IMG/VR virus record: IMGVR_UViG_3300042691_037543
Coordinates: 20,737 to 84,736 of that record
Reading direction: 5' to 3' (one strand)
DNA length: 64,000 bases
Source: a virus
In this document: positions 812-63,596 of the stretch, piece by piece
Layout of the letters: every line of letters starts with the position of its first letter
Numbering within the stretch: position 1 is the first letter of the stretch
Made by a program: the position numbers and the translations under genes
Notes under the pieces: model-generated
Seen by the model: the letters and a program-made list of their open reading frames with translations, nothing else
What the model was told of the DNA's origin: nothing
Database searches by the model: none

Positions 812-1245
812 ACGGGGCAGAGCTTCTCGTGGCGCTCTTGTCGCTGTGGCGGCACATGCGGTACCGCGAGTGCATCGAAGCGCACCGCGCTCAGATCGTC
901 GCCGTCGCAGAGGCGGGTGAACGTGAGTACGGCGTGCCCGCCGGCTTGTCGCTGGTGACGGGCTTCTTCGAGACGCACCTGGGCTGCGCGCACGGTGAGG
1001 GCGGCAATTGGGGTGCGCCCATCGACCGCTTTCACCGGCACACCGCAGGTACGCCCATGCACGCCGTGCGTGCGATGGCTGCAAGCTACCGAGTGTGCGG
1101 CACCTGGGTTGGTGCGGTGGGTCGCTTTCGTTCGGGCTTGTGCCACCCGACGAACCCCCTGCATCGTGTGGCGGTCACCATGCGCGTGCGAACTACACGC
1201 ATCATCTACCAGCAGGCGGGCCTACCCGTCCCCGAGGGCTTGTGA
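808..1245 (+). CDS. Lytic transglycosylase/lysozyme-like protein
   Basis: A 145-aa protein with an early Glu in the segment FFETHLG, followed by Gly-rich GEGGNWGAP and a later helix RAMAASYRVCGTW. This is the pattern of soluble lytic transglycosylase-type muramidase folds, where the Glu is catalytic. Such enzymes cleave the MurNAc-GlcNAc bond in peptidoglycan. No signal peptide is visible. The start is GTG at 808, overlapping the previous stop, and the 3' end overlaps the polymerase start as GTGA. Its place in the replication operon rather than the lysis genes is odd; it could be a virion-entry enzyme or a moron. Family assignment is by motif only. Confidence 0.5.
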   Translation: MNGAELLVALLSLWRHMRYRECIEAHRAQIVAVAEAGEREYGVPAGLSLVTGFFETHLGCAHGEGGNWGAPIDRFHRHTAGTPMHAVRAMAASYRVCGTWVGAVGRFRSGLCHPTNPLHRVAVTMRVRTTRIIYQQAGLPVPEGL

Positions 1246-3911
1246 AGCATCTCCCACTCTACCCAAACGGTACGCCCTCCCCAACGGACAACCGGGTGCC
1301 TGCACCGAGCTCGGGGCTCGGGTGTACCGCGTGCGAGCTCTCGTCGGGGGCCAAGTACGCACCTCTGGCCAACTACGTTCTCGGTCGGCGCATGAGCAGC
1401 GGAGCCGAGAAGGGCGCACCTTCCGTAGCTGTGGTGTTCGAGGCGCCGACTCGCGGTGAGGACGCAGGCGGTGACCCGTTTAGTAGCGCCACCTACCGTA
1501 CGCTGGTGGAGATCATCCGTGCGTCGAGCACCCACCGTGTCGTGCCGATGTACGCCGTGCACTGCGCCCCTGGTAACGCCGAGGTAACTGCGGAGCACGT
1601 CACAGCTTGCCGAGGGCATATTCACGAGACGCTCGCCCAGGGTGCCGCCGCCGTGCATCTCATCATCGCGGTTGGCCCTCTGGCGCACATCGCGGTGCTC
1701 GGTCGGAAAGTCGCGGCAGACCTCGTGCCAAACACGGTGAGCGTGATCGACGCGTTTTGGGCCAAGCGCGTTCCCGTCATCTGCCTGCCCGCGGCGAGCG
1801 TGCTGCGCAAAGACCCGGCACGGACGCGGTGGCGCATCGCGGACGCGATCGAAACGGCACAGAACGTGGCTAGGTCAATCCATCACGGCCGGCTCGCGAC
1901 AACCTTCGTCCAGTCGTACGAAGATCATCTACGCGTGCTCGGTGTTCTTAAAAAGGCGGACGCACTCGTGCTCGACACGGAGACGGTCGGCCGGCTGCAT
2001 ACCCCGACGTTCTACGTCGAGGAGCTGTCGTTCGCTGTGAACGACAGTAACGCGGTCACCTACGGCCGCGATGTGCTGAGCGACCATCGCGTTCGTAGTG
2101 ACTTGAAGGCGCTGTTGGAGAACCACGCCGTCTGCAAAGTCGGCCACAACATCAAGTACGACCTACTCGCGCTGCGGACGTGGCTCAACGTGCACTGCTT
2201 CGGGCACCCGCTTCGCGACACGCGCCTCGACCACAAGCTGCTGCACGCAGACTCGGTGGGTGACCTCGCGACCTGCGCAGAGATGGTCGGCTTCGGCGGC
2301 CACAAGGAAGAGGCGCGGGCGGCGATCGACGTGGTCAAGCACGACCTGAACGCGCTCGCTTCGGCGCCGAAGCGAGCTCTGACCAAGAGCGGCAAGCCGC
2401 GTAAGCCGCCCACGCTCAAGTACCTCGACGAGTCCGAGGTGGACCCCGAGCATCTCGAAGACATCCAGCAGGGCGCCGACACCGAAGCGTACGCGCAGGC
2501 GTACATTCCGTGGCGTGTCCGTGCGCGGTACAACGCGCTCGACGCGATGAGCACCTACTGGCTCGACAAGCTCAACGCAGACCGCTTCGACATGTCCAAC
2601 CGCGAGTTGTCGGAGGGGCGTATGGCGGTCGCGAACGAGATCGTGCGGCCTGCTATCTCCGCGCTGGTCGAGATGGAGGCGACGGGTATCCGTGTGGACA
2701 CCGCGGCGCTAGACATCTTCACGCAGTTCTTGAAGTCCGAGATCGCCGTAGTGCAGTCTCGGCTCAACCACTACCCCGGCGTGAACTTCGCGAGTCCGAA
2801 GCAGCTCGCGGAGCTCCTCTACGACAAGCTCGGGCTGCCTGTGCTCGCAGAAACACCCTCGGGGGGCCGCGCGACCGGCGAAGAGGTGTTGCTCGAACTC
2901 GCGGAGAAGACCAAGCACCCGCTTCCCAAAGACGTGCTCGCTTTCCGCGAGCTCGAAAAGCTGCTCGGCACCTACGCCGAGGGCATGAAGAAGCACATCC
3001 GTGTGGGGCCCAACGGGCCGCGCATCCATCCGAGCACGCTGCTCGACGGGGCTGGTACCGGCAGGTTGTCCAGCCAGAACCCCAACATGCAGAACGTGCC
3101 GAGCCCCGACCGAGATACGCCTGGGCGGCCGGCGTTCGGCAAGATGGCTCGTGACATCTTCGTCGCAGACCCAGGCTGCGTACTCCTCGAAGTGGACATG
3201 AGCCAGCAAGAGCTGCGTATCGCTGGGATGCTCTCGGGCGACCCGGTGATCCTCGAATGTTATAAGAACAACGAGGATATTCACCGCGGCACGGCGGCGA
3301 TTGTGTACGGCGTCCCGCTGGCCGCAGTAACGAAGGAGCAGCGGGCACGCTCGAAGACCGTGACCTTCGGGCTGGTGTACGGCAAGACCGACCGCGGGCT
3401 CGCCAAGCAGCTCAACATCACCGTGGCGGAAGCCGCGCGCATCCGCAAAGCGGTGCTCGGGCGGTTCAAGAAACTCGCAGAGTTCTGCGAGCGGTGTCTG
3501 GCGTCGGCCCGCAGGGACGGTGGCGCGTATACATGGTGGAACGGTCACGAGCGGGCGCGGTGGCGCCCGCTGCCTGCGATCAACGACATGACCGACGAAG
3601 GCTTCGGCGCGCGCATCAACGCGGAGAACGCCGCGGTGAACACCCCGGTCCAGGGGCTCGCCGCGGACATCGTCACCGCCAGCTTGTTTCCGATCGTTGC
3701 CCGCTTCCGCAAGGACAACCTCGACGCGCAGCTGGTGAACACCGTGCATGACTCGGTGATGGTCAACGTGCGCGAAGACCAGCTACCGCTCGCCGCCAAG
3801 ATCATGCGCGAAGTGATGCTCGGGCACAACACGAACGGGTTTCCGCTGGGCGTTGACATGAAGGTGGGCAAGAGCTGGGGCAGCATGACCGAGTACCACC
3901 TACCGGGGTGA
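1242..3911 (+). CDS. Family A DNA polymerase with N-terminal uracil-DNA-glycosylase-like domain and 3'-5' exonuclease
   Basis: Replicative polymerase of 889 aa. The start is GTG at 1242, overlapping the upstream stop; the frame stays open to 1008, but that part lies inside the previous gene. Residues about 20-210 resemble family 4 uracil-DNA glycosylases: CxxCxL, then EAPTRGEDAGGDPF, then VGPLAHIAVLG. About residue 245 begins a DnaQ-type exonuclease (LDTET, GHNIKYD, and a late YNALDA). The polymerase domain has motif A (EVDMSQQELR, Asp about 652), motif B (RxxxKxxxFxxVYG, with Phe at the E. coli Phe762 position) and motif C (VHDS, Asp about 837). Motif C carries Ser where Pol I has Glu. No 5'-3' nuclease domain is present. 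Confidence 0.92.
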   Translation: MKHLPLYPNGTPSPTDNRVPAPSSGLGCTACELSSGAKYAPLANYVLGRRMSSGAEKGAPSVAVVFEAPTRGEDAGGDPFSSATYRTLVEIIRASSTHRVVPMYAVHCAPGNAEVTAEHVTACRGHIHETLAQGAAAVHLIIAVGPLAHIAVLGRKVAADLVPNTVSVIDAFWAKRVPVICLPAASVLRKDPARTRWRIADAIETAQNVARSIHHGRLATTFVQSYEDHLRVLGVLKKADALVLDTETVGRLHTPTFYVEELSFAVNDSNAVTYGRDVLSDHRVRSDLKALLENHAVCKVGHNIKYDLLALRTWLNVHCFGHPLRDTRLDHKLLHADSVGDLATCAEMVGFGGHKEEARAAIDVVKHDLNALASAPKRALTKSGKPRKPPTLKYLDESEVDPEHLEDIQQGADTEAYAQAYIPWRVRARYNALDAMSTYWLDKLNADRFDMSNRELSEGRMAVANEIVRPAISALVEMEATGIRVDTAALDIFTQFLKSEIAVVQSRLNHYPGVNFASPKQLAELLYDKLGLPVLAETPSGGRATGEEVLLELAEKTKHPLPKDVLAFRELEKLLGTYAEGMKKHIRVGPNGPRIHPSTLLDGAGTGRLSSQNPNMQNVPSPDRDTPGRPAFGKMARDIFVADPGCVLLEVDMSQQELRIAGMLSGDPVILECYKNNEDIHRGTAAIVYGVPLAAVTKEQRARSKTVTFGLVYGKTDRGLAKQLNITVAEAARIRKAVLGRFKKLAEFCERCLASARRDGGAYTWWNGHERARWRPLPAINDMTDEGFGARINAENAAVNTPVQGLAADIVTASLFPIVARFRKDNLDAQLVNTVHDSVMVNVREDQLPLAAKIMREVMLGHNTNGFPLGVDMKVGKSWGSMTEYHLPG

Positions 3912-3948: not shown

Positions 3949-4395
3949 GTGAAGAAACCGCAGCACAGCATCAACCCCGACCAGATCGACCTGGAGTTCA
4001 TGCGGCTCCCTGGCGACTTGGCCTACTTCGGGCAAATCTTCGCAGAGGCGTGCGAAGCGCTCAACGAGCTGGAGCTGAAACTGGAGGTGTACGAGGCTCG
4101 TACGAGCCTGACCATTCGTGAAGCAAGAAGCATGATGGGTGAACGTGTGACGAACGACACGGTTGCCGCTAGAATGCGTGGCAGCGCGGAGTGGCAAGCG
4201 CTGCGCGAAAAGGTCATCGAAGCGGAGGCCGACAAGCTCCGCGCGAAGATTGACCTCGACGCGGTCATCGCGAAGAAAGACATGCTCATCAGCCTGGGCG
4301 CGTACATGCGGGCCCAGGCAAACGGCGACCCGGCCATTCGGCTGCCGAGCGGCAAGCCGAGGCAGACTGACAAACACAACTGGAGTGGTGAGTGA
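3949..4395 (+). CDS. Hypothetical helical protein of the replication operon
   Basis: A 148-aa, predominantly helical and charged protein with heptad-like stretches (for example EACEALNELELKLEVYEA). It has a basic C-terminus and starts with GTG at 3949. The family was not recognised. It sits between the polymerase and the SSB gene and overlaps the latter by GTGA at 4392-4395, so it is probably translated with them. A recombination- or replication-accessory role is suggested only by this position. Confidence 0.7.
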   Translation: MKKPQHSINPDQIDLEFMRLPGDLAYFGQIFAEACEALNELELKLEVYEARTSLTIREARSMMGERVTNDTVAARMRGSAEWQALREKVIEAEADKLRAKIDLDAVIAKKDMLISLGAYMRAQANGDPAIRLPSGKPRQTDKHNWSGE

Positions 4396-7594: not shown

Positions 7595-7985
7595 CGATCA
7601 GCGCTTCGCGCAGATGCGTGAAGCACTCGAAAAGCTGGCAGCGCACGACGCCAAATTGGCGAAGCCCGCAGCGACGTTCAAGCCACAGCGCGGGTCGGTG
7701 TTCACGCCGGGGTCGAACACTCCGACGGACCCGGCGTGGGCTGAGATGAACACAACCGAGGAGATGATCGACTTCATGTTCGGGGCAGTCACCGCCAACC
7801 TCGCGGCGCTCTCCGAATGGGAGGTGACCTTCGTTGACTCAGCCAAGAACCAGCACAACCGCAAGATGGCGGCAGGGTTCAAGGCCACCAACACCCTGAG
7901 CGGGCGCCAGCTCGTCGTGCTGTACCGCATCGTGCAAAAGCTGGCGTCCACAACCGTGAAGGCGATGACCAATGAAGATCAGTGA
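7587..7985 (+). CDS. Hypothetical protein between the sbcD and sbcC homologues
   Basis: A 132-aa protein starting at GTG 7587, overlapping the upstream gene by 8 bases and the downstream gene by 14. It is mainly helical; the second half has a conserved-looking segment (NRKMAAGFKATNTLSGRQ). The family was not recognised. Its position inside the gp46/gp47-like pair suggests an accessory role in end processing, but nothing in the sequence shows it. Confidence 0.7.
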   Translation: MSNDQRFAQMREALEKLAAHDAKLAKPAATFKPQRGSVFTPGSNTPTDPAWAEMNTTEEMIDFMFGAVTANLAALSEWEVTFVDSAKNQHNRKMAAGFKATNTLSGRQLVVLYRIVQKLASTTVKAMTNEDQ

Positions 7986-9597
7986 CCTGAGCATCGAAGG
8001 GTTCTGCGGCATCGGCTCGCGCGCCAACGTGGCGTTCCCACAAACGGGCCTCGTGCTCGTGACGGGCCGCAACGGGTACGGCAAGAGTACGTTGATCGAA
8101 TCCGTCTCCCACGCCGTGTGGGGCGAGGGTGTGTTTCGCACCGGGTCGCTGTGGGCGGACAAGGGCACCATCGAGCTGCACACACACGACGGCTCGATGG
8201 TGCACAGACAACGCGCGGGCTCGCGTACGTCGGGGCAGTTGTACCGGCACGGCAGTACGTCGCTGTTCGACACCGCTACGAAGATGAACGAGGCGGCAGC
8301 GACGGCGTTCGGGTCACACGACGCGTGGCGCACGACGCACATCATCGAGCCCAGCGACGCGGCGATGTTCACGCGCGCAAGCGACACGGTGCGAAAGCAC
8401 GTCTTGGAGGGGCTTCTCGGGCTGAGCGTCTACGACGACGCCCTGGTGAAGTCCCGCACGTTCCGCAAGGCAGCAGACCGGGTACGCGAAGACACGGCGA
8501 ACAAGATCGCCGAGATTCGCGGTCGCCTGGAGACGCTCAACAACGTGTACAGCGCGTCCAAGTCGGCCCGCTCGAAAGAGGAGCTCACCGCGATCATCGA
8601 CGACGCCACCGCGCGCATAGACGCCCTGCAACAGCGCATCACGGAGTGCGACGACAAGGTGGGCGATCTGCGGTCGTCGGCCCAAAACCTACGCAGCTCC
8701 GAAGCGGTGCTGGTTGCGAAGCTGCACAACATCCACCGCGTAGCCGTGCACGGCGACCGGGTGTGTCCCCTGTGCGGCAGCACCGTCGGTGACGACGTGG
8801 CCAAGGGGATCAATGATGCCGCGACTGCCGAAGAACACGAAGTGAAAGCCCAACTTGCGGAGCTGCGAGAGAAAGCCCACCTGTGCGAAGCCGAGTTGAG
8901 CACGCAGTTGCTCGTGCAGGGCGACACGCGCCGGGATCAGGTGGCCCAGCAAGGCCGGCAAGACGCGGCGCGCCGCGAGCTCGACATCGTTCAGAAGGCC
9001 GAGGGCATTCGCGAGCGCATGGAGGCCGAGCAGGCACAGCTCGACGTGCTGAACGACAAGCTCGCGAACTCCATGACCGACGTAGACCTGTACGCGACCG
9101 CCGAGAAGATTCTCGGGGTGCGTGGTGTGCGCGCGCACATCCTCGACAACGCGGTCAACGCGCTCGGGCACTTCGCGGCGCAATGGATGTCGCAGCTCTC
9201 CGACAACGAGATGAGCGTCTCCGTGCAGTCCTACACGGAGAACACCCGCGGCGACGCCCGCAACGCTATCTCCATCTCGCTGCTGCGCGGTGACCGCACG
9301 ACGCCGTACGCCGCCTGCTCTCGCGGTGAGCAGCGCCGCATCGACATCGCCGTGACGCTCGCGCTGGCCGACATTCAGTCGTCCGCGACGGCGCACCCGA
9401 CGGGCACGCTGTTCGTAGACGAGATCATGGACGGGCTCGACTACGCCGGGGCTCTCGCAACGCTGAGCTGTCTCGCGAAGATGGCAGCCAAGCGTTGCGT
9501 AGTGGTAATTACTCACAAGGCGAGCGTGCAGCTCGCCGCGAAGGCTGCGGCGCACTTCATGTTCGTGGCGCCGGGGGTTATCGAAAGGGCGAAGTAA
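7972..9597 (+). CDS. sbcC: SbcC/gp46-like recombination ATPase
   Basis: A 541-aa SMC-like ATPase. It has Walker A GRNGYGKST at residues 32-40, then a coiled-coil arm with a zinc hook CPLC at about residue 265, then a second coiled-coil arm. The ABC signature-like CSRGEQRR is at about 449 and Walker B LFVDEIMDGLD at about 480. It is about half the length of bacterial SbcC and close to T4 gp46 (about 560 aa), so the coiled-coil arms are short. It forms the end-resection complex with the SbcD-like protein. The stop TAA shares a base with the next ATG at 9597. Confidence 0.9.
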   Translation: MKISDLSIEGFCGIGSRANVAFPQTGLVLVTGRNGYGKSTLIESVSHAVWGEGVFRTGSLWADKGTIELHTHDGSMVHRQRAGSRTSGQLYRHGSTSLFDTATKMNEAAATAFGSHDAWRTTHIIEPSDAAMFTRASDTVRKHVLEGLLGLSVYDDALVKSRTFRKAADRVREDTANKIAEIRGRLETLNNVYSASKSARSKEELTAIIDDATARIDALQQRITECDDKVGDLRSSAQNLRSSEAVLVAKLHNIHRVAVHGDRVCPLCGSTVGDDVAKGINDAATAEEHEVKAQLAELREKAHLCEAELSTQLLVQGDTRRDQVAQQGRQDAARRELDIVQKAEGIRERMEAEQAQLDVLNDKLANSMTDVDLYATAEKILGVRGVRAHILDNAVNALGHFAAQWMSQLSDNEMSVSVQSYTENTRGDARNAISISLLRGDRTTPYAACSRGEQRRIDIAVTLALADIQSSATAHPTGTLFVDEIMDGLDYAGALATLSCLAKMAAKRCVVVITHKASVQLAAKAAAHFMFVAPGVIERAK

Positions 9598-20424: not shown

Positions 20425-20759
20425 AGCCTCGCGGTGACGACGATGGTGCCGTAGCTACCGTCGTCGGGTACGACCACGACGGTAGCGCCCACGGTAACGA
20501 CGTACTGGTAGTCGTACGTCCCCGGCTGGAGGTCAGTAGTAGCGAACGTGGTGTCCACGTTGCCGTCGGTGGCGGGGGATACGACCGAAGGGGTTTTCGT
20601 GACGCGCACGCCGAGGTCGCGGTGCTTCGCAACGAGGCTCACGGTAGCCGCGGTCAGGTCGATCGGCTCCCCGCCCTGTGTCAGCGTGTCGCGCAGCACG
20701 GGGAGGGTGGCGCCCTCGCTGATATAGAACTCGCTCAGGCACCCGCAGCTCATGGTCAA
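20421..20759 (-). CDS. BppU-like immunoglobulin-fold tail protein B
   Basis: A 112-aa beta-rich protein. It begins MTMSCGC and then shows the same strand order as its downstream neighbour (IDLTAATVSLVAKHRD; QPGTYDYQYVVTVG; YGTIVVTARL). The Pro-Gly-Thr-Tyr-x-Tyr strand is characteristic of BppU-N-type or related bacterial Ig domains in tail proteins. It overlaps the repeat-protein gene by four bases. A structural role is inferred. Confidence 0.6.
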   Translation of the reverse strand: MTMSCGCLSEFYISEGATLPVLRDTLTQGGEPIDLTAATVSLVAKHRDLGVRVTKTPSVVSPATDGNVDTTFATTDLQPGTYDYQYVVTVGATVVVVPDDGSYGTIVVTARL

Positions 20760-38969: not shown

Positions 38970-41006
38970 TCACCGAATGGAGAAGATGGGCTCGAAGCCG
39001 CCTTGCAGCCGGTTATCGGCCGCGGCTTCGAGGTCCGTGATGAAGCCTGCCGCGATGCGGTCGGGGTCGAAGCCCTCTGCGAACTTCTGCGTGATATCGA
39101 AGTGACTGTTGCGGAAGTCGTTGTGCGTGCGGTTGCCGCCACGGGCGCCCGGTGTGCGTGTGCGGTTGGTCGCGATGGCCGTCTCCGCGTTTACGGCTGC
39201 GGTGTTTTCGTCGGTCGCCGCAGCGAGACGGGCGAGGCCGCGGCTGATCGGGTCATCCGCCGTGGCATTCGCGTGCTGCGTCATGTTGCTTAGCTCGGCG
39301 CCGGCCTCCCGAAACATGCGTGCGATGAAGTTGATGACCGACGCAATCGCGTTCGCGAACTGCGTGACGATGGGGATGACGTGGTCGCGGACGCGCTCCC
39401 ACACCCACGCGAGTCCGATGGCGAGCGCGCGGAGCGCTGGCATAAGAAACGAGCCGATCGAGGTGAACAAGTTACCGATGGCCCCGGCAACGAGGAGCAC
39501 CGCTGGGCGCACACGGTCGATCAAGTCGCTGATGACCGGGCTCATGTACATGAAGAACTGGCGCAGCCCCTCGGCAGCCCCAGCGATCATGTTCGCAAAT
39601 CCAGGCAGCACCTCGATCATGATGTCGCCGACGACTTCGCTCACCTGCCCGAAGATGTTGGCGATGTAGTAGACCATCGGCATCAACGAGTTGAATGCGT
39701 TGACGAGCTGGGTTGTCACCAGCGCCACCTCGTCTTCGGCCTCCATGAAGTGCGCGAATCCGCCGGTAATCAGACCGGCCATTGGGCCGCCGAGCAGCGC
39801 CCCCGCGGCCATCGCGCCGCCACCTGCCTGCACACGCCCCGCGTTGTCGCCATGCTGGAGCTCGTTGAACAACCCGCCTGCGCGCCGCTGCACGTTCTCG
39901 ATGTACGGCAGCACCATCATCCGCACGCGGCTGTCCACCGCCGTGAACATGTGCTCCACACGCTCGGTGAACCGACCAGTCATCCCCACGAGCGCCTGCG
40001 AGATACTGGCACCAACTGTCTTGATGCGGTCTTCGTACCGAGACAGCAGCCCGTTCATGGCGCGAAGCGAGTCCTTCACACCTTCAAACAGCGGCGCCGT
40101 GATGGCACGCTGGATACCCGTGATGTGAGACTGGAACTCGCCCTGTAGCGCAGAGTAGGTATTGCCCGCGCGAGAGATCATGTCTGAGAGGCCACCGAAC
40201 GAGCCTTCCAGCAACCGGAGGCGCTCCGGCTGCTGCATTCGGTTGAACGTCTCGGCAGTGACCGCCGCCTGCCCCATCGACCGGCGGTAGTTGTTGATGA
40301 AGGGCAAGAGGCGTTGGAAGGTCGCCACGTCGGCGCCGGCACCCGCTTGTCCCTCGCGGATCATCAGCGACATGTCGCGGCCGATCTGCTCGGCGTCGAC
40401 CCCGAGGGACCGCCCGATGGCCGCGAAGTTGTTGCTGAACGAGAGCATCTGATCGAGGTTGTTGTTGAACCCCGCCGCGAGCCCGGAGATGCCTGCCTGG
40501 AAGACGGTGATGTACTCACTCGTCTCGCCGGGTAGCCGCGCTGCTGCCTCGTTGATGCGGTTGAGCGCCGTCTCGGCGATGTTCACACCGCCAGTGATAT
40601 CGCTGGCAAACCCGAGGGCTTGGAACGTACCCGCCATCGTGTTGACCATGTCTTCTTGACTCTGGTGCAACCCGACGACGGTGTTGGATAGGAAGGCGTA
40701 CGCGCGCTGCGCAGTCCCGACCGCGATGCCGAGCGCGTTGAAGTTGCCGACGAGCGACATGATGCCGCCCCCGCCACCTCCACCGCCAGCAGCACCGCCG
40801 CCAGAGACGATGTTGCTAGTGGCGGCCATGATGCCGCCGGCCGACTGCGAAGTGCTCTTCTCCGTAGAGGCAAAGAGCTTCTTCACACGCTCCATCACAC
40901 CGACGACGCGCTCGGCGGTCTTGGTGGCGCGGTCGATGGCGCCCAGCGTGACGCCTACGTTGTAGACAATACGCTGGGCGCCCGAAGTCGGCTCGTCGTC
41001 TGCCAT
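38970..41006 (-). CDS. Tape measure protein
   Basis: A 678-aa helical protein. It has the typical N-terminal helices, then Gly-rich breaks (GGGAAGGGGGGGG), then long amphipathic helices. Hydrophobic segments near residues 510-590 (PAVLLVAGAIGNLFTSIGSF; FANAIASVINFIARMF) could insert in the membrane. At about 0.15 nm per residue it would give a tail of roughly 100 nm, short to average for myoviruses (inference). Its ATG at 41006 overlaps the stop of the frameshifted chaperone frame as ATGA. Confidence 0.88.
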   Translation of the reverse strand: MADDEPTSGAQRIVYNVGVTLGAIDRATKTAERVVGVMERVKKLFASTEKSTSQSAGGIMAATSNIVSGGGAAGGGGGGGGIMSLVGNFNALGIAVGTAQRAYAFLSNTVVGLHQSQEDMVNTMAGTFQALGFASDITGGVNIAETALNRINEAAARLPGETSEYITVFQAGISGLAAGFNNNLDQMLSFSNNFAAIGRSLGVDAEQIGRDMSLMIREGQAGAGADVATFQRLLPFINNYRRSMGQAAVTAETFNRMQQPERLRLLEGSFGGLSDMISRAGNTYSALQGEFQSHITGIQRAITAPLFEGVKDSLRAMNGLLSRYEDRIKTVGASISQALVGMTGRFTERVEHMFTAVDSRVRMMVLPYIENVQRRAGGLFNELQHGDNAGRVQAGGGAMAAGALLGGPMAGLITGGFAHFMEAEDEVALVTTQLVNAFNSLMPMVYYIANIFGQVSEVVGDIMIEVLPGFANMIAGAAEGLRQFFMYMSPVISDLIDRVRPAVLLVAGAIGNLFTSIGSFLMPALRALAIGLAWVWERVRDHVIPIVTQFANAIASVINFIARMFREAGAELSNMTQHANATADDPISRGLARLAAATDENTAAVNAETAIATNRTRTPGARGGNRTHNDFRNSHFDITQKFAEGFDPDRIAAGFITDLEAAADNRLQGGFEPIFSIR

Positions 41007-47780: not shown

Positions 47781-49172
47781 TCACCCCGCATGTTGGATGA
47801 TGCCCACGCGCTTGTAGCGCGCGGCGTCGCCCGTGGTGGCGTCGGTGCGCACCGGCCAGTCACCGATGAACCGCCAGCTCGCGCTCACCATGTCTTGCAG
47901 ACGGTTGAGCGGCGAGCGGAGGATCATCTGGATGCGGTCGCTGAACACCTCGATGCCCTGGTTGGTGATCTTGGCGTCCGCGACCTTGCCGTTGAGCCCC
48001 GCCTCCGTCACGAGCGCCGCGAGGTTCGAGTACATCTCGAAGATGTAGTCGCGCCCCGTGAACAAGATGCGCTCGACGCGCTGGCCGCCCACGGCGCCGT
48101 TGGCCGTGAGCTCGCCCGCGAAGTCGTCGTCCTGGCTGTACGTCGCCGTGCTGCCGCCCAGCACCGTCTCGACGGTGGGGCACTCCGTGTTGCGCACGAA
48201 GATCGTGTTGAGAATCTCGCCGAGGGCGAACTGCTTGTACATGTAGTAGTCGGGCAGCGACGTGTTGAGGCGCTGGAGGTCGCTGTCCTCGTACATCTTC
48301 GCGACCGACGTGGGCGAGCAGTGCGCGTGGAAGCGCCCGTCTTCGTGCTCGTTCACGTTCATCTGCCACAGGCGCGCGACCATCGAGCGCACGCTCGACA
48401 GGGTGGGCAGGTCGGTCGAGATGATGTCGTCGATCTTGTTGCCGCCGCCCACGCGCACCATCGCCGTGCGATCGTCCGAGATGACGTACGCGCGGTTCGC
48501 GACGCTCGTGGTGCCGGCCGACAGCGTCAGCGTGCCGGGGCCGATCTCGTCGCCCGCGGTGTCCGGCGTGTAGCCGATGACGTTGAAGGACGCCTCGGCG
48601 CCGTTGTCGAACACCTTGATGGGCAGCGGGTTGCTGGAGCTCACCGCGGTGAAGCGCACGGCGTTGCCGCTCGTGCTGCGCGCGCGGGTGAACCCGTTGA
48701 GGCGCTTCACGCGCAGCGTGGTGCCCGACTGCGCGCCGTCGGCGACGGTCCAGCCCGACTCCGCGGCGTTGTACGCGCGGTTGCGCACCTTGCGGTTGAG
48801 CGACTGCGCCGCCTGGAGCCCGAGCTGCTGGGCGTTGCGCAGGAAGAGGTCCGCGATGGCGACCATGCTGGTCGGCATGTTCGTGTCGATCGTGCCCGCG
48901 TACTGCTGGAGCTGAGCCTCCCACTGCTCGGCGCCGTAGGTCTGCGGGATCGGGTCGGTGCCCGGCTGGAGCGGGCGCATCGACACGGGGAGGAGGCCCG
49001 GCGCCGTGAAGATCATCGAGTCGCCCACGCCCGCGGGCCACTCGCGGGCGGCGACCTCGGAGCGGAAGATCAGCCGCGGGAACAGCGCGTCGTGAAACGC
49101 GCGCTCCAGCAAGTTCTCCTGCACCAGCGCTCGGACGGTCGCGTTCTGTGCGATGATCGAAAACTCGGGCAT
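47781..49172 (-). CDS. Major capsid protein
   Basis: A 463-aa protein. It follows the scaffold gene and has the features of an HK97-fold shell protein. There is an N-terminal arm with LVQENLLERAFHDALFPRLIF, an E-loop-like stretch and a long spine helix around NAQQLGLQAAQSLNRKVRNRAYNAA. A C-terminal strand/helix set ends KRVGIIQHAG, a frequent capsid C-terminus. No protease gene lies next to it. Start ATG 49172 with GAGGTAG upstream. Confidence 0.85.
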   Translation of the reverse strand: MPEFSIIAQNATVRALVQENLLERAFHDALFPRLIFRSEVAAREWPAGVGDSMIFTAPGLLPVSMRPLQPGTDPIPQTYGAEQWEAQLQQYAGTIDTNMPTSMVAIADLFLRNAQQLGLQAAQSLNRKVRNRAYNAAESGWTVADGAQSGTTLRVKRLNGFTRARSTSGNAVRFTAVSSSNPLPIKVFDNGAEASFNVIGYTPDTAGDEIGPGTLTLSAGTTSVANRAYVISDDRTAMVRVGGGNKIDDIISTDLPTLSSVRSMVARLWQMNVNEHEDGRFHAHCSPTSVAKMYEDSDLQRLNTSLPDYYMYKQFALGEILNTIFVRNTECPTVETVLGGSTATYSQDDDFAGELTANGAVGGQRVERILFTGRDYIFEMYSNLAALVTEAGLNGKVADAKITNQGIEVFSDRIQMILRSPLNRLQDMVSASWRFIGDWPVRTDATTGDAARYKRVGIIQHAG

Positions 49173-57991: not shown

Positions 57992-58383
57992 CAGCGGACC
58001 CTCCGATTGGCCTTAGCGGCGCGTGCGATCTTGTCTCGCATGAGTCGGTGAGGGTCCAGTACGCGGTACCGCTTGCCACCTTTCGGCGTCGCCGCCGCTG
58101 CGATCAGCCCGTCGCGTACCCACTGCACGACCATCTCGAACGACGCGTTGTACCAGCGCATCACCACGTCTGCGGTGACCCACTCCCCCTGCGTCATGTT
58201 GTCGAGAATGGGGTAGGTGATGCCGTACTTCGTGTCTTGAAGCACGGTCGGCTTTTCCGTGCCTGCCTTGGGTGGGAGAGGCACGAACTTCGGGTCGTCG
58301 AGGTACTCCGCGCGACCGATCCAGCTCGGGTACCGCGCCGTGCCGAGCACGGGGCGGCTGTTGTGAATGAAGAACGAGCTCAC
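57991..58383 (-). CDS. Winged-helix/MerR-type helix-turn-helix protein
   Basis: A 130-aa protein. The C-terminal half reads WVTADVVMRWYNASFEMVVQWVRDGLIAA, followed by GGKRYRVLDPHRLM. This is the layout of excisionase/MerR-type DNA-binding domains (Val-x-Trp-x-Arg, then a wing with Lys-Arg-Tyr). It may bind DNA as a regulator or packaging factor. It is downstream of the portal and overlaps it by four bases. Confidence 0.6.
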   Translation of the reverse strand: MSSFFIHNSRPVLGTARYPSWIGRAEYLDDPKFVPLPPKAGTEKPTVLQDTKYGITYPILDNMTQGEWVTADVVMRWYNASFEMVVQWVRDGLIAAAATPKGGKRYRVLDPHRLMRDKIARAAKANRRVR

Positions 58384-60188
58384 TCGATGGGCTCCTCGGG
58401 CAACGGCTCCTCGCCTTCGGCCGGCATACCCTCTACGCCCTCCTCCCCTTCGAGGCCGGCGAGCTCCGCGTCGAGTGCGGCGAGCTCTGCGTCGAGCGCG
58501 GCGTCGTCCTCGGGGGCACCCTCCTCACCCTCGGCGGGCTCGGCGGCGGACTCTTCCTCCATCTCTTTCTGCATCTGCATCTGACGCTTGGCCATCTCTT
58601 CCATCTTGGCCATCTCTTCGTCAGCGTCTTGCTTGATCTGGTGGATGGTGTCCGCGGGATCGTCGAGCCCGAAGTACGGGCCGATGAACTTCGTGGCCGT
58701 GAGCGCATCCACGAGCCCCTTTTCCTTCGCCGTGCCGGCCGCCTGCACAGCCGTGTTGGCGTCCGAGAGCGTCGGCTGGAAGTATGGGCCCCACGCCAAC
58801 GTGATGTGGTCGCTCGACCCGAACTTCCGCGGCTCGAAGCTGCGCTCCCCCGTGTCGGGGTTGGTCACCGGGCGCATCGGTAGATCGAGCACCTGACGCA
58901 CGACGCCGATCCCTTCAACCGGGCGCGGCGTCAGGGCCGCCTTGCACACCTTGATGACGATGCGGAGCAACCGCTTGATGCCCCGCTCGCCGTACTGCTC
59001 GCGCAGCACGTCGGCCTTCTCCAACATCGAGCTGTAGTCGCGGTCGATCTCCGTGGCGGTCTTCGCGACCTGCGAGCTCGACTGGTCGATCACGACACGC
59101 GCCATGCGGCACACGAGCTTCTCGAAGCGCTCGGCGAGCTCCAGCGCAGCGCGAGGGCCCTGGCCGTTCATCTCCATGTAGCTTGCGTTGCCCTTGCTGA
59201 GCTTGAGCGCGTTGCCGGAGCCCTTCTTCAAGCCCTCCGGCATCTCGTCTTCCGACACGATCAGCAGCGTCGGGTCGCAGTTGGAGATCACCCCGCGGTT
59301 GGCCTGCGAGATGAGCGCGTCCATCTGCTCCATCATGTCGAACGCACCGTGCGCGTCAGGGTCGCCGTCGATGTCGTCTTGCACCTCTTGGTTCTGAATC
59401 CACACGGCGGGGCACTCCCCGATGCCGTGCTCGACGCGGTTGGAGTCAAACTCGTTCCAGTTCGGCTCGCCCTTGTCGGCCGGCACGCCCTCCCACACCT
59501 CGTCCGACTGCGTGTCGATCACACGGCGGTAGAAGAACGGCCGCTGCTCGACGATGCGGTTCTTCTTCTCGTCGAAGGTGACGACGGGCTCGTAGTAGAC
59601 GTAGCGAACTTCGAGCTTGCGCAGCGTGTTCTCCGCGCGCGACAGGTACATGGGGATGCACCACCGCGGATCGAACACCTCGAAGACGGGGCGCCCCTTG
59701 TCGAGCTTGAACCCGATGGCCACCGAGCCCATCGCGCCGCCGTAGTTGCGGGCCATCACCATCTTCGACCACAGCCGGCCCTCGTCGCAGATCGCGCCGA
59801 GCATGTCCTCCGTATCGGGGTCACCCGGCACGCGCACGATGGGGTGTCGCCGCTGCGAAAAGAGCAGGCCGGTGAAGCGCTCGACGATGACGCGACCGAG
59901 GTGGTACGGCGCGTCGGGCCGGCGGTACTTCAACGAGAGCGTCTGGTCTGGGTTGCCCTCGAAGCCCGGCGGGATGTACCCGGTGTGTGCGACGGAGGCG
60001 CGCTGTTCGGTGGGCAGCACGGGGGTGCCGTCCCACGCAACGCGCCGATGGTCGTACTGCTGCGCGCGGAAAAAGCCCCACAGCCTGTTCAAGTGCATCT
60101 GGCGCGCGGTCATGCGGTCGCCAGACGACATCTGATCGAAGGCTGCAATCGCGGTGTCCCGGCCGGTGCCGTCGTTGGTCACGCTCAT
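58380..60188 (-). CDS. Portal protein
   Basis: A 602-aa protein, ATG 60188. It begins with a helical N-terminus, then RVIVERFTGLLFSQRRHPIV and a wing/stem region. The middle has DALISQANRGVISNCDP, MNGQGPRAALELAERFEKL and TEIDRDYSSML, a portal-type crown and clip pattern. The acidic C-terminus (EEESAAEPAEGEEG...) is also common in portals. It lies between terminase and the small head genes, as expected. It forms the dodecameric DNA channel. Confidence 0.85.
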   Translation of the reverse strand: MSVTNDGTGRDTAIAAFDQMSSGDRMTARQMHLNRLWGFFRAQQYDHRRVAWDGTPVLPTEQRASVAHTGYIPPGFEGNPDQTLSLKYRRPDAPYHLGRVIVERFTGLLFSQRRHPIVRVPGDPDTEDMLGAICDEGRLWSKMVMARNYGGAMGSVAIGFKLDKGRPVFEVFDPRWCIPMYLSRAENTLRKLEVRYVYYEPVVTFDEKKNRIVEQRPFFYRRVIDTQSDEVWEGVPADKGEPNWNEFDSNRVEHGIGECPAVWIQNQEVQDDIDGDPDAHGAFDMMEQMDALISQANRGVISNCDPTLLIVSEDEMPEGLKKGSGNALKLSKGNASYMEMNGQGPRAALELAERFEKLVCRMARVVIDQSSSQVAKTATEIDRDYSSMLEKADVLREQYGERGIKRLLRIVIKVCKAALTPRPVEGIGVVRQVLDLPMRPVTNPDTGERSFEPRKFGSSDHITLAWGPYFQPTLSDANTAVQAAGTAKEKGLVDALTATKFIGPYFGLDDPADTIHQIKQDADEEMAKMEEMAKRQMQMQKEMEEESAAEPAEGEEGAPEDDAALDAELAALDAELAGLEGEEGVEGMPAEGEEPLPEEPIE

Positions 60189-60206: not shown

Positions 60207-62867
60207 TCACCGCTGGAGCAGGGAGTGCTTGAGCAGCTTTGCCTTCTTGGCTTCCTTCGGGCCGACGGTGCGCGCACCTTCACGAGCGAACCAGCAGTTG
60301 TGCACCGCGTAGCCGTGCACGACGAACGACTCGTCTTCCTCGACGTGCAGGTTGTAGACGGTCCCGCGGAACGTGCTCTTGTCGATGCGAAGCAACGGCG
60401 CGCGCACACCCTCGGGAACCCGCTCCGTGTGGTACCCAGCAGCGGGGGGCCGGCGCACCGCGCCCCCGAAATGAACGCGGTCGAGGTCGCTCCCCGTGTT
60501 GTTGTAAAGCACGGCGGTGTCGTGCACGCCGAGGGTCACGCGGTATTGCCCATCGACCAGCGACGTGACCCCCGTGTTCGGGTTCGTGTACAGGTGCTCG
60601 CCCTTGTCGATGATGAGCGAGGGACGAAACCCAGCGTCTACGAGGGTCTGGCGTGCCTGCTCGGCCATGCCGAGCGACCGGGTACGCAGCACGAAGGCGC
60701 TGTTGCCGAAGCGATCCACAGGCATCGGGTCTTCGGCAACGAGAACCCACCCACGGAGAACGGCGAGACGCAGGCTTGTGGGCGCACGGAGCCAGTTCCA
60801 CGGAAGCGCGGCACGCCGACCGGCGGCCCCCAACAGCCGGATGGCGGCGACACCCTTCTGGCCGAGCACGATGCGGAACGAGGAGCGGTCTTCTTCGATG
60901 TGAAACCCCGTCCCCGGCGCAACACGGTTCGCCTGCTGCGTGCAGAACAGGCGTAGGTGCATCGAGTTCGGCGGCAGCTTCACGGAGAAGTGCGCAGCGC
61001 CGGGCCGAACCTTCGCGCGACTGGCGAGCAGGATGCCGACGAACTGCATGAACTCTTCGTCGAGGGGCAATCCGAGCGCCGCGGCACCCGGCGGAAGCGC
61101 GGGCGGCTCCTCTGTGAACTCCTGCTGCGGCGACAAGAGCGAGTGGTGCTCGTTCAAGTCGCGAGCGCGCACCCACTGCCACCCTTCCGGCCAGTGAAAC
61201 TCGCCCTGCTTTCGGTACTTGAAGTCCGCAGGGAACATCGCGAGCACGGGGTGCTCGTGCGTGACCGTGATCGGCGGCCCGTTTCGAGGGGTGAGCTTGT
61301 AGACCGTCGAGTCGTACGCGCGGCTGGTCACCTCGGTGACCTTGCGCCAGCGACCCTTGTGCGTGAGCACGCGGTCGCCCACTTCGATTTCTTCGATGCG
61401 CGTGGGGCCCCTGTGCGTGAGCACGCGCTGGCCGGGGGGTAGGCACGCCATGAGATAGTCCGACGTGTGGCCCGCGGGCGAGTAGTTCATCATGCCGTTC
61501 ATCCACGCTGCGACTTCATTGGTGAGTGGCTGGCCTCCCTGACTCGGGATGATCCACTTGCCGTTCTCCATCTCGACGGCGATCGACTCGACACCGAAAA
61601 CCGGGTCGCTCTTGTTGCGGCCGGTGGTGAAGGGGCGCACGGGCACTGCGGATAGATCGCGTGTGAAGTCGAGAATGAACGACTGCGCAGCGTTCGACTC
61701 TACGAACACGATGGACAGGTAGCGTTGGTGCGTGTTCACGATGCGCTGCACGATCTCGGGGGCGGTCCATCGCCCCGACTCGATGCACAACACCTCGCGG
61801 TCGCCGTTCGGGTGAATGGCGATCGTAAAGATTACGCTCAGGTCAGAGTTCTTCTTACCCGTTCCGAGGTCTACGCCGGTCACGGTCATGTAGCCGGGGG
61901 GTACAACGCGCAGCTCGCCGGGCATGGAGCGCCCGGAGCCTCGTTCGAGGGCGCGCTTGAGCCACTCTTCACGAAACCGCGAGTCGGTGTCGTCGCGCGC
62001 AACGCAGAGAAGCTGTCTCGCGAATTCGAGACTGCCCATCGTCTTGCTCTCTTCGATACGCTCGGCGGGCCAGCGCTCGGGCCACGACAGGGAGCCGTCT
62101 TCACGCACGACGGGGTTGCGTTCGGAGAACCAACCCGGCAGGGCCGCCAGCCGGTGCATCAAGTCTTCGGGGTGCCACGCCGTACCGACGAGCCAGATGA
62201 AGGCGTTGGCGGTCATGCGCCCTGAGATGGTCGCGTTGTACCAGCGGTACAGGTCGTCGCGGGCGTGGTCGGTGCGCGTGTTCTCGTAGTCGAGCACGTC
62301 GTCGAGGAAGGCCCCGTCGAGGCGCGAGCCGAGCACGTTGCCGTGCACACCGACGGCTTGCACAGAGGGGTCGCGGGCGGCGGACGTGCGCTTGACGGTG
62401 ATGGCGGCGTCGGACCAGCGATCCCCTGGGACGAGGTTCGGAAAGACGAGCCGCAGCTCTTCGGACTGCTCGATGTACGTCTTGATTGCTTTAACAATCT
62501 TGACTGCCTGCCCCGCGGTGTTCGAGACGATGGCGAGGCGCAGGTCGGGGTTGTTCCCGAGGAGCCAGAGGGTGCGCATGACGCACAGCGAGAAGGACTT
62601 ACCCGACTCGATGTGCGACCAGATGACGGCGCGCTTGTGCTTGCTGGCGATCTCGTGAAACCGGCGGTGGATGGGGGCCTGCCGGATGGGCTTGTGGGTG
62701 AGCTCGTCGCGCCCCACGAACTCGCAGAACACGTCACACGACAGCCGAGCCGCGGCGATGCGGATACGCTGTGCGCGTTCGAGCATGTCTCTCGCCGCGT
62801 CCGGGTTGGCGGCGAGCCAGTTCAAGACACGTTCTTTGTTCCGCTCGTCGAGCATGGCGCTGTTCAT
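60207..62867 (-). CDS. terL: Terminase large subunit interrupted by an intein
   Basis: An 886-aa precursor; ATG 62867 was chosen (MNSAMLDERNKERV; ATG 62855 is a second option) because the longer frame would pass the divergent gene's start. ATPase: HIESGKS (Walker A-like, Lys about 90) and AFLDDVLD (Walker B). RNase-H-like nuclease: VTGVDLGTG with the first Asp, then IVFVESNAA with Glu. The third acidic motif SDYLMAC is split by the intein after Ala. Removing 383 intein residues gives a 503-aa terminase, the usual length. It packages DNA through the portal. Its mature C-terminal end (CWFAREGARTVG...) follows the intein. Confidence 0.92.
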   Translation of the reverse strand: MNSAMLDERNKERVLNWLAANPDAARDMLERAQRIRIAAARLSCDVFCEFVGRDELTHKPIRQAPIHRRFHEIASKHKRAVIWSHIESGKSFSLCVMRTLWLLGNNPDLRLAIVSNTAGQAVKIVKAIKTYIEQSEELRLVFPNLVPGDRWSDAAITVKRTSAARDPSVQAVGVHGNVLGSRLDGAFLDDVLDYENTRTDHARDDLYRWYNATISGRMTANAFIWLVGTAWHPEDLMHRLAALPGWFSERNPVVREDGSLSWPERWPAERIEESKTMGSLEFARQLLCVARDDTDSRFREEWLKRALERGSGRSMPGELRVVPPGYMTVTGVDLGTGKKNSDLSVIFTIAIHPNGDREVLCIESGRWTAPEIVQRIVNTHQRYLSIVFVESNAAQSFILDFTRDLSAVPVRPFTTGRNKSDPVFGVESIAVEMENGKWIIPSQGGQPLTNEVAAWMNGMMNYSPAGHTSDYLMACLPPGQRVLTHRGPTRIEEIEVGDRVLTHKGRWRKVTEVTSRAYDSTVYKLTPRNGPPITVTHEHPVLAMFPADFKYRKQGEFHWPEGWQWVRARDLNEHHSLLSPQQEFTEEPPALPPGAAALGLPLDEEFMQFVGILLASRAKVRPGAAHFSVKLPPNSMHLRLFCTQQANRVAPGTGFHIEEDRSSFRIVLGQKGVAAIRLLGAAGRRAALPWNWLRAPTSLRLAVLRGWVLVAEDPMPVDRFGNSAFVLRTRSLGMAEQARQTLVDAGFRPSLIIDKGEHLYTNPNTGVTSLVDGQYRVTLGVHDTAVLYNNTGSDLDRVHFGGAVRRPPAAGYHTERVPEGVRAPLLRIDKSTFRGTVYNLHVEEDESFVVHGYAVHNCWFAREGARTVGPKEAKKAKLLKHSLLQR
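60297..61445 (-). mobile_element. Intein with degenerate LAGLIDADG-type endonuclease domain
   Basis: A 383-residue intein. Block A is CLPPGQRVLTHRGPTRIEEI and starts with Cys at 61445-61443. Block B contains TVTHEHPVL (the TxxH pair). Block F is GTVYNLHVEEDESFVV. Block G is HGYAVHN followed by Cys+1 (60296-60294). All splicing residues (C1, T/H block B, penultimate His, terminal Asn, Cys+1) are present, so splicing should work. The middle has EEFMQFVGILLASRAKV and VLRGWVLVAEDPM at the places where homing endonucleases have GDG and DADG. The catalytic acids are lost, suggesting an inactive endonuclease. Confidence 0.9.
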
Positions 62868-62873
62868 TGTTGT

Positions 62874-63596
62874 ATGAGTAGCGTTGCCATGCCGAAGCAG
62901 CAATACACGCGGGACTTGTACGAGACGTTGCTGGTGTACTACCGGGACCACGCGGAGGATCACGCGGAGGCTGCCCGGCGGTGTAAATGCACACGCAAGC
63001 TGGCACAGACGACCTACGAGCGCGGGTGGCGCGGCCTTGCGTGGGCGAAGCCGCTGCGCGAGGTGCTGGAGTCTGAGCAGATGCAGGCGCGGGCGGCGCG
63101 CTTGAAGATGGAGCGCGAGTCCTTGGAGGCCGAGGAGCGCGCACGCATGGACGCACGAAAGGATGCGTTGGAGGCGCGCGCCGCAGAGGCGAAGGGCGCG
63201 AAGCTGAGCAGGGCGAACGCGATCATGTTCTCGGCGGCCTGCTCAAAGGCGCTGGTGGGGTTGCAGCGCTTGGTCGCGGAATTCGAGGGCCGCACACAGA
63301 GCCCCGCCGCTGTGCAGAGCATGTCGTTGAAAGAGATTCGCTACTGGATCACGACCGTCAGCGGCGCCGTACGCGACGCACAGGTCATGTTGAAGACGGC
63401 CCTAGAGATCGAACGCATCGTCACAGGCGAACCCCTGGCCGTGCTCTCGATCCGCACCGAGAACATGGGCCCGCAAGAGATGTACGCAGAGCTCACCCGC
63501 ACCCTAGAGTCGCTGCGCATCCTCAAGCACCTCCCCAACGGCACCGAAGGCAGAGACGCCGCCCTCGACATCCTAGACATAGACCCCACCGCCTAG
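62874..63596 (+). CDS. Putative small terminase-like protein (divergent)
   Basis: A 240-aa protein; ATG 62874 (or the in-frame ATG 62889). It has an N-terminal helix-turn-helix-like region (DHAEAARRCKCTRKLAQTTYERGW), a long charged coiled coil (LEAEERARMDARKDALEARA) and a C-terminal helical domain (IRYWITTVSGAVRDAQVMLKT). An N-terminal DNA-binding motif, central coiled coil and C-terminal portal- or TerL-binding region are the plan of phage small terminases. It lies next to terL but on the opposite strand, with only 6 bp between the two starts. The function is inferred from layout. Confidence 0.6.
   Translation: MSSVAMPKQQYTRDLYETLLVYYRDHAEDHAEAARRCKCTRKLAQTTYERGWRGLAWAKPLREVLESEQMQARAARLKMERESLEAEERARMDARKDALEARAAEAKGAKLSRANAIMFSAACSKALVGLQRLVAEFEGRTQSPAAVQSMSLKEIRYWITTVSGAVRDAQVMLKTALEIERIVTGEPLAVLSIRTENMGPQEMYAELTRTLESLRILKHLPNGTEGRDAALDILDIDPTA

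Follow-up and report, generated by a model that had tools for sequence, protein, structure and literature searches.

We analysed the terminase (TerL) gene, and the segment interrupting its nuclease centre, in the window, a stretch of 64,000 nucleotides forming the right 64 kb of an 84.7-kb IMG/VR record (IMGVR_UViG_3300042691_037543, positions 20,737 to 84,736). The precursor frame was open with zero stops; the ATG at 62867 is its likely start, and an in-frame GTG also occurs at 62963. The encoded protein matched PHROG 38 over residues 27–475 (E=1e-61) and was the sole TerL match in the record. A TerL profile matched T7 gp19-type structures within the ATPase domain only, and the residues that we take to be the nuclease acids were assigned by conservation in the clade together with known TerL motifs. 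At nuclease motif III, relatives read D-x-L-M-A followed by S or C, and the N-extein was about 46–57% identical to other clade TerLs. Two further IMG/VR contigs with different metagenome ids matched the window with 100% identity across 8.3 and 8.7 kb; because all three agree, assembly errors in the motifs are unlikely. Elsewhere in the window, PHROG matches indicated a DNA polymerase (1008-3908), an SbcC-like protein (7972-9594), a tape measure protein (38973-41006) and a major head protein (47784-49172). The features of the locus are given in Table 1.

Table 1. Features of the TerL locus, in window coordinates
Feature	Position	Strand	Remarks
TerL precursor gene	60207..62867	-	886 aa including intein; PHROG 38, NF033889
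N-extein	61446..62867	-	474 aa; ATPase domain and nuclease domain with three catalytic acids
Walker A, WSHIESGKS	62595..62621	-	Aligns with WSHVEAGKT/S of relatives
Walker B, FLDDVLD	62289..62309	-	DD and LD invariant in alignment A3
Nuclease motif I, VDLGTG (D333)	61857..61874	-	D invariant in alignments A3, A4, A7
Nuclease motif II, FVESNA (E390)	61689..61706	-	E invariant in alignments A3, A4, A7
Nuclease motif III, SDYLMA (D470)	61446..61463	-	D invariant in A3, A4, A7; intein directly after
Intein	60297..61445	-	383 aa; C at 61445 to N at 60297; model pLDDT 85.5
Splicing block A, C1 nucleophile, CLPPGQRVLTHRG	61407..61445	-	C1 invariant in 57 inteins
Splicing block B, TxxH (T62, H65)	61245..61271	-	H65 invariant in 57 inteins
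Decayed LAGLIDADG endonuclease region	60471..61145	-	About residues 101-325; fold predicted
First LAGLIDADG helix, ends GILLASR (61017-61037)	61017..61058	-	Corresponds to PI-SceI Asp218
Second LAGLIDADG helix, RGWVLVAED	60726..60779	-	Corresponds to PI-SceI Asp326
Splicing blocks F and G, VYNLHVEEDESFVVHGYAVHN (H382, N383)	60297..60359	-	N383 invariant, H382 nearly; intein_Cterm
C-extein, CWFAREGAR...	60207..60296	-	29 aa; starts at +1 Cys; aligns with SWFAREGAR / CWFAREAA of intein-less relatives
Portal gene	58380..60188	-	Next downstream of TerL; PHROG 64, E=3e-7

A first-pass annotation had proposed an intein in the TerL nuclease centre, directly after motif III, with intact splicing blocks and a spliced product of about 503 aa. 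At the level of sequence these points held, and positions 60297-61445 on the minus strand were confirmed as an intein inside TerL: the boundaries were exact, the insertion site (LMA-C...HN-C, hyphens marking the junctions here and below) lies 5 residues past D470, the third nuclease acid, and the joined exteins amount to 503 aa. All splicing residues were present (C1, T62 and H65 of TxxH, H382-N383 and C+1), and the intein probably splices. In block F, N and S stand at positions that are D and H in many inteins; across the intein group this N was common to all and the H was mostly missing. Hint_2 scored above its Pfam cut-off, intein_Nterm gave 24.4 bits where 24.5 is required, and intein_Cterm was barely above its own threshold. 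The Hint parts of the structural model had pLDDT values mostly of 90-98, and the Hint fold was supported by Foldseek matches to TliVMA and PI-SceI. A search of the 84.7-kb record for a second intein returned this one match only. The intein accounts for the odd length of the terminase, and its annotation is thereby corrected.

We then compared the site across the clade, in which 80 TerLs were reduced to 68 representatives at 95% clustering. The insert was missing from 57 of them, whereas 8 carried an intein at Walker A (GK-T/S) and 3 at the nuclease site. Intein-less relatives of the window TerL (47-57% identical) were continuous across the site. For example, two TerLs with 51-52% identity, L020 and L021, read HTPDELMA-SWIAREAA and HPGDRLMA-SYFAREGA, respectively, where the window reads HTSDYLMA-C...HN-CWFAREGA. 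An ordinary TerL domain shared by all relatives, the observation that had been named beforehand as contrary to an intein, was therefore ruled out. In the TerL tree the carriers were scattered and formed no single group, as expected of a mobile element. The Walker A inteins were those of L022, L192, L200, L216, L221, L223, L229 and L230; L022 and the intein-less L020 were 93% identical over their common part. A scan of genome contigs recovered one relative only, L230 (PMZA01000381.1), a clade TerL that has its intein at the P-loop and is encoded on an Armatimonadetes MAG contig; this was the only host hint found.

Five other inteins occupied the identical site, in L073, L075, L231, L114 and L096, of which L231 and the more distant L114 were added through a DNA pattern search. 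Their extein identities to the window were 51% (L073), 46% (L075), 51% (L231), 38% (L114, which is cut by the contig end) and 27.5% (L096). The first four retained both acid motifs intact (GLFLAEG or GLYLAEG, and RGW(L/F)(M/V)GDG), and L096 carried a 156-aa mini-intein without an endonuclease. The window intein showed 28-29% identity to the same-site alleles and was divergent throughout. In L143, a TerL of a different class, an intein was found at the aligned position, and the inteins of L006 and cyanophage Mic1 aligned three codons upstream of the window site. L143:169-4620 contains two inteins, one in the P-loop and one in nuclease motif III, an arrangement like that of Mic1, and the mini-intein contig has a second, 421-aa intein in a different gene (L096:3775-5829).

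An empty counterpart of the L073 site was found in the intein-less TerL L187, whose exteins are 98.7% identical in amino acids to those of L073. The DNA alignment of the pair breaks off at base 3048 of L073 and picks up again at 4279, and is continuous in L187; L187 is a near-twin showing the L073 site empty to the base. Within terL, DNA identity was 92-97% over the 1.2 kb preceding the site, and beyond the site and for ~1 kb downstream it was about 80-87%. This step may represent a one-sided co-conversion tract left by recent homing, or higher conservation of terL.

The first-pass annotation had also described the endonuclease as decayed, with both catalytic acids lost from motifs reading GILLASR and GWVLVAED (60729-60752). 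The readings were reproduced, and the decay was borne out by an absent first acid, a displaced second acid and an unmatched Pfam domain. As to the acids themselves, the loss stood for block C, where E has become S, but not fully for block E, which retains E238/D239 one to two residues off register. Specifically, LAEG of the first motif has become LASR, with the E/D replaced by S142 and the next G by R143. The second motif, xGDG in form, reads VAED, and one extra residue displaces the acid, so that the alignment places E238 or D239 opposite the second catalytic Asp, or A237 if ungapped. In the 57 comparators whose motifs were recognisable, D/E occupied the block C position in 55, and D was found in block E in all 57. 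When the profile of the 57 sequences was searched against the PDB, these catalytic positions aligned with Asp218 and Asp326 of PI-SceI, both critical for cleavage (PMC1508164); the window intein as a single phmmer query gave weak PDB matches only.

The structural models agreed with the alignments. In the L073 model, E177 and D270 are the last residues of the two helices. In the window model, helix 1 terminates on S142, and helix 2 stops at 236, short of A237-E238-D239. The window fold was nonetheless predicted to include the two-helix LAGLIDADG arrangement (mean pLDDT 85.5), and Foldseek ranked TliVMA and PI-SceI at the top and PhoVMA tenth. LAGLIDADG_3 exceeded its Pfam cut-off in L073, L075, L231 and L006, and a search for it in the window intein gave no match. 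Of the residues common to four intact inteins, the proportion kept by the window intein was 40/60 for Hint and 17/46 (37%) for the endonuclease (Fisher p=0.003). Because the intact allele L075 shows a similar imbalance (endonuclease 46/67 versus Hint 60/67, p=0.005), we treat this difference as supporting evidence only; as the intein is divergent throughout, part of the divergence of its endonuclease is a matter of age. Taken with the altered motifs, the window intein is probably unable to home. Inactive yeast VMA endonucleases have been published (PMC1508164).

These observations are best explained by a cis-splicing Cys1/Asn/Cys+1 intein at the same site as in other phage terminases, with a decayed endonuclease that should not cut and a splicing half kept by selection, a reading that we consider very likely to be correct. 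The TerL precursor would presumably be nuclease-inactive, since the insert parts D470 from the remainder of the motif and the C-terminal tail, and splicing would join A474 to C858 to give a normal TerL of 503 aa. Earlier in its history, the LAGLIDADG endonuclease would have cut intein-less terminase genes, with repair copying the intein in; such past homing is suggested by the intein family and by the L073/L187 pair. In the window lineage, loss of the first catalytic acid and displacement of the second should have ended cutting. After the spread of the intein, the endonuclease would have been unselected and decayed, whereas splicing would have been kept because the terminase is needed. In the homing cycle, the window intein would fall between the alleles that are full-length and intact and the mini-intein of 156 aa. 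The nuclease centre of the terminase appears as a recurrent intein site with alleles for every stage of that cycle. It is empty in L187 and many others, holds inteins with intact endonuclease motifs in L073, L075, L231 and L114, an intein with a putatively dead endonuclease in the window, and a mini-intein in L096. L073 and L187 are similar enough for homing to be tested directly.

The same intein with an endonuclease that is still active and homing, with E238 or D239 serving one site and Ser tolerated at the other, is improbable. An acid does lie 1-2 residues from the second catalytic position of a confidently predicted fold, and I-DmoI has Glu at one catalytic site, but Ser is unable to take over the metal binding of the lost acid. 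The Gly that follows each acid in other inteins is gone too, the Pfam domain is unrecognised, the conserved endonuclease residues are kept at the low proportion given above, and PI-SceI needs both acids (PMC1508164).

We give little credence to the intein as a post-translational switch, in which slow or conditional splicing would time the packaging nuclease, with the dead endonuclease fold serving as sensor or splicing partner. Such control has been proposed for the Mic1 TerL (PMC7156551) and would fit an insertion that disrupts the nuclease centre and leaves the ATPase domain whole, as well as an endonuclease fold predicted to outlast its acids. However, a search of the window intein for sequence signs of redox or temperature control revealed none that was specific: no Cys adjoins the N-junction, and the only other Cys of the intein, C168, lies in the endonuclease part. 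The suggestion that two Cys nucleophiles might make splicing redox- or temperature-dependent found no support, as Cys1/Cys+1 is the family default, occurring in 59/66 related inteins. The intein is also sporadic in the clade, as a mobile element would be, and the mycobacteriophage TerL inteins that were tested spliced readily (PMC5050341). A timer, in which the unspliced terminase would be a motor without a nuclease and splicing would turn on cutting late in infection, is suggested by an endonuclease dead but folded and by a site directly behind the third nuclease acid; it too strikes us as doubtful. A precursor that stays unspliced, from a terminase gene that is in decay or a product of misassembly, has a negligible chance of being the right explanation, given that the three identical records reject an assembly error, the splicing, Walker and nuclease residues are all kept, and this is the sole TerL match in the record.

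A nuclease-domain TerL intein (Mic1, PMC7156551) and a dead but folded endonuclease (PhoVMA, PMC8966425) have each already been published, and neither is new here. In the literature searched, with partial coverage, we found no published account of the exact window site or of the allelic series. The TerL of cyanophage Mic1 (MN013189) carries a nuclease-domain intein with a +1 Cys (PMC7156551), which resembles that of the window in lying in nuclease motif III and in its Cys1, Asn and +1 Cys. It is a small intein with no endonuclease left (PMC7156551). It differs in its upstream junction (DHL-CDAL versus DYLMA-C in the window) and in belonging to a different TerL class; a further intein interrupts the ATPase domain of the Mic1 TerL, whereas the window TerL has one intein. 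The mycobacteriophage TerL inteins (sites a-g) likewise interrupt TerL active-site motifs, but their seven sites all fall within the ATPase domain, with none in the nuclease (PMC5050341); active endonucleases were demonstrated for two of these inteins and splicing for five (PMC5050341). PhoVMA of Pyrococcus horikoshii (7qst) kept the LAGLIDADG fold, lost its acids, has a shortened second helix and is inactive as found (PMC8966425); its host protein is an archaeal ATPase, and its block E has a deletion where that of the window has an insertion. TliVMA (7qsu, 7qss) and PI-SceI were the best structural matches over Hint plus endonuclease, although they retain the catalytic acids, cut DNA, reside in other host proteins and are 12-15% identical to the window intein.
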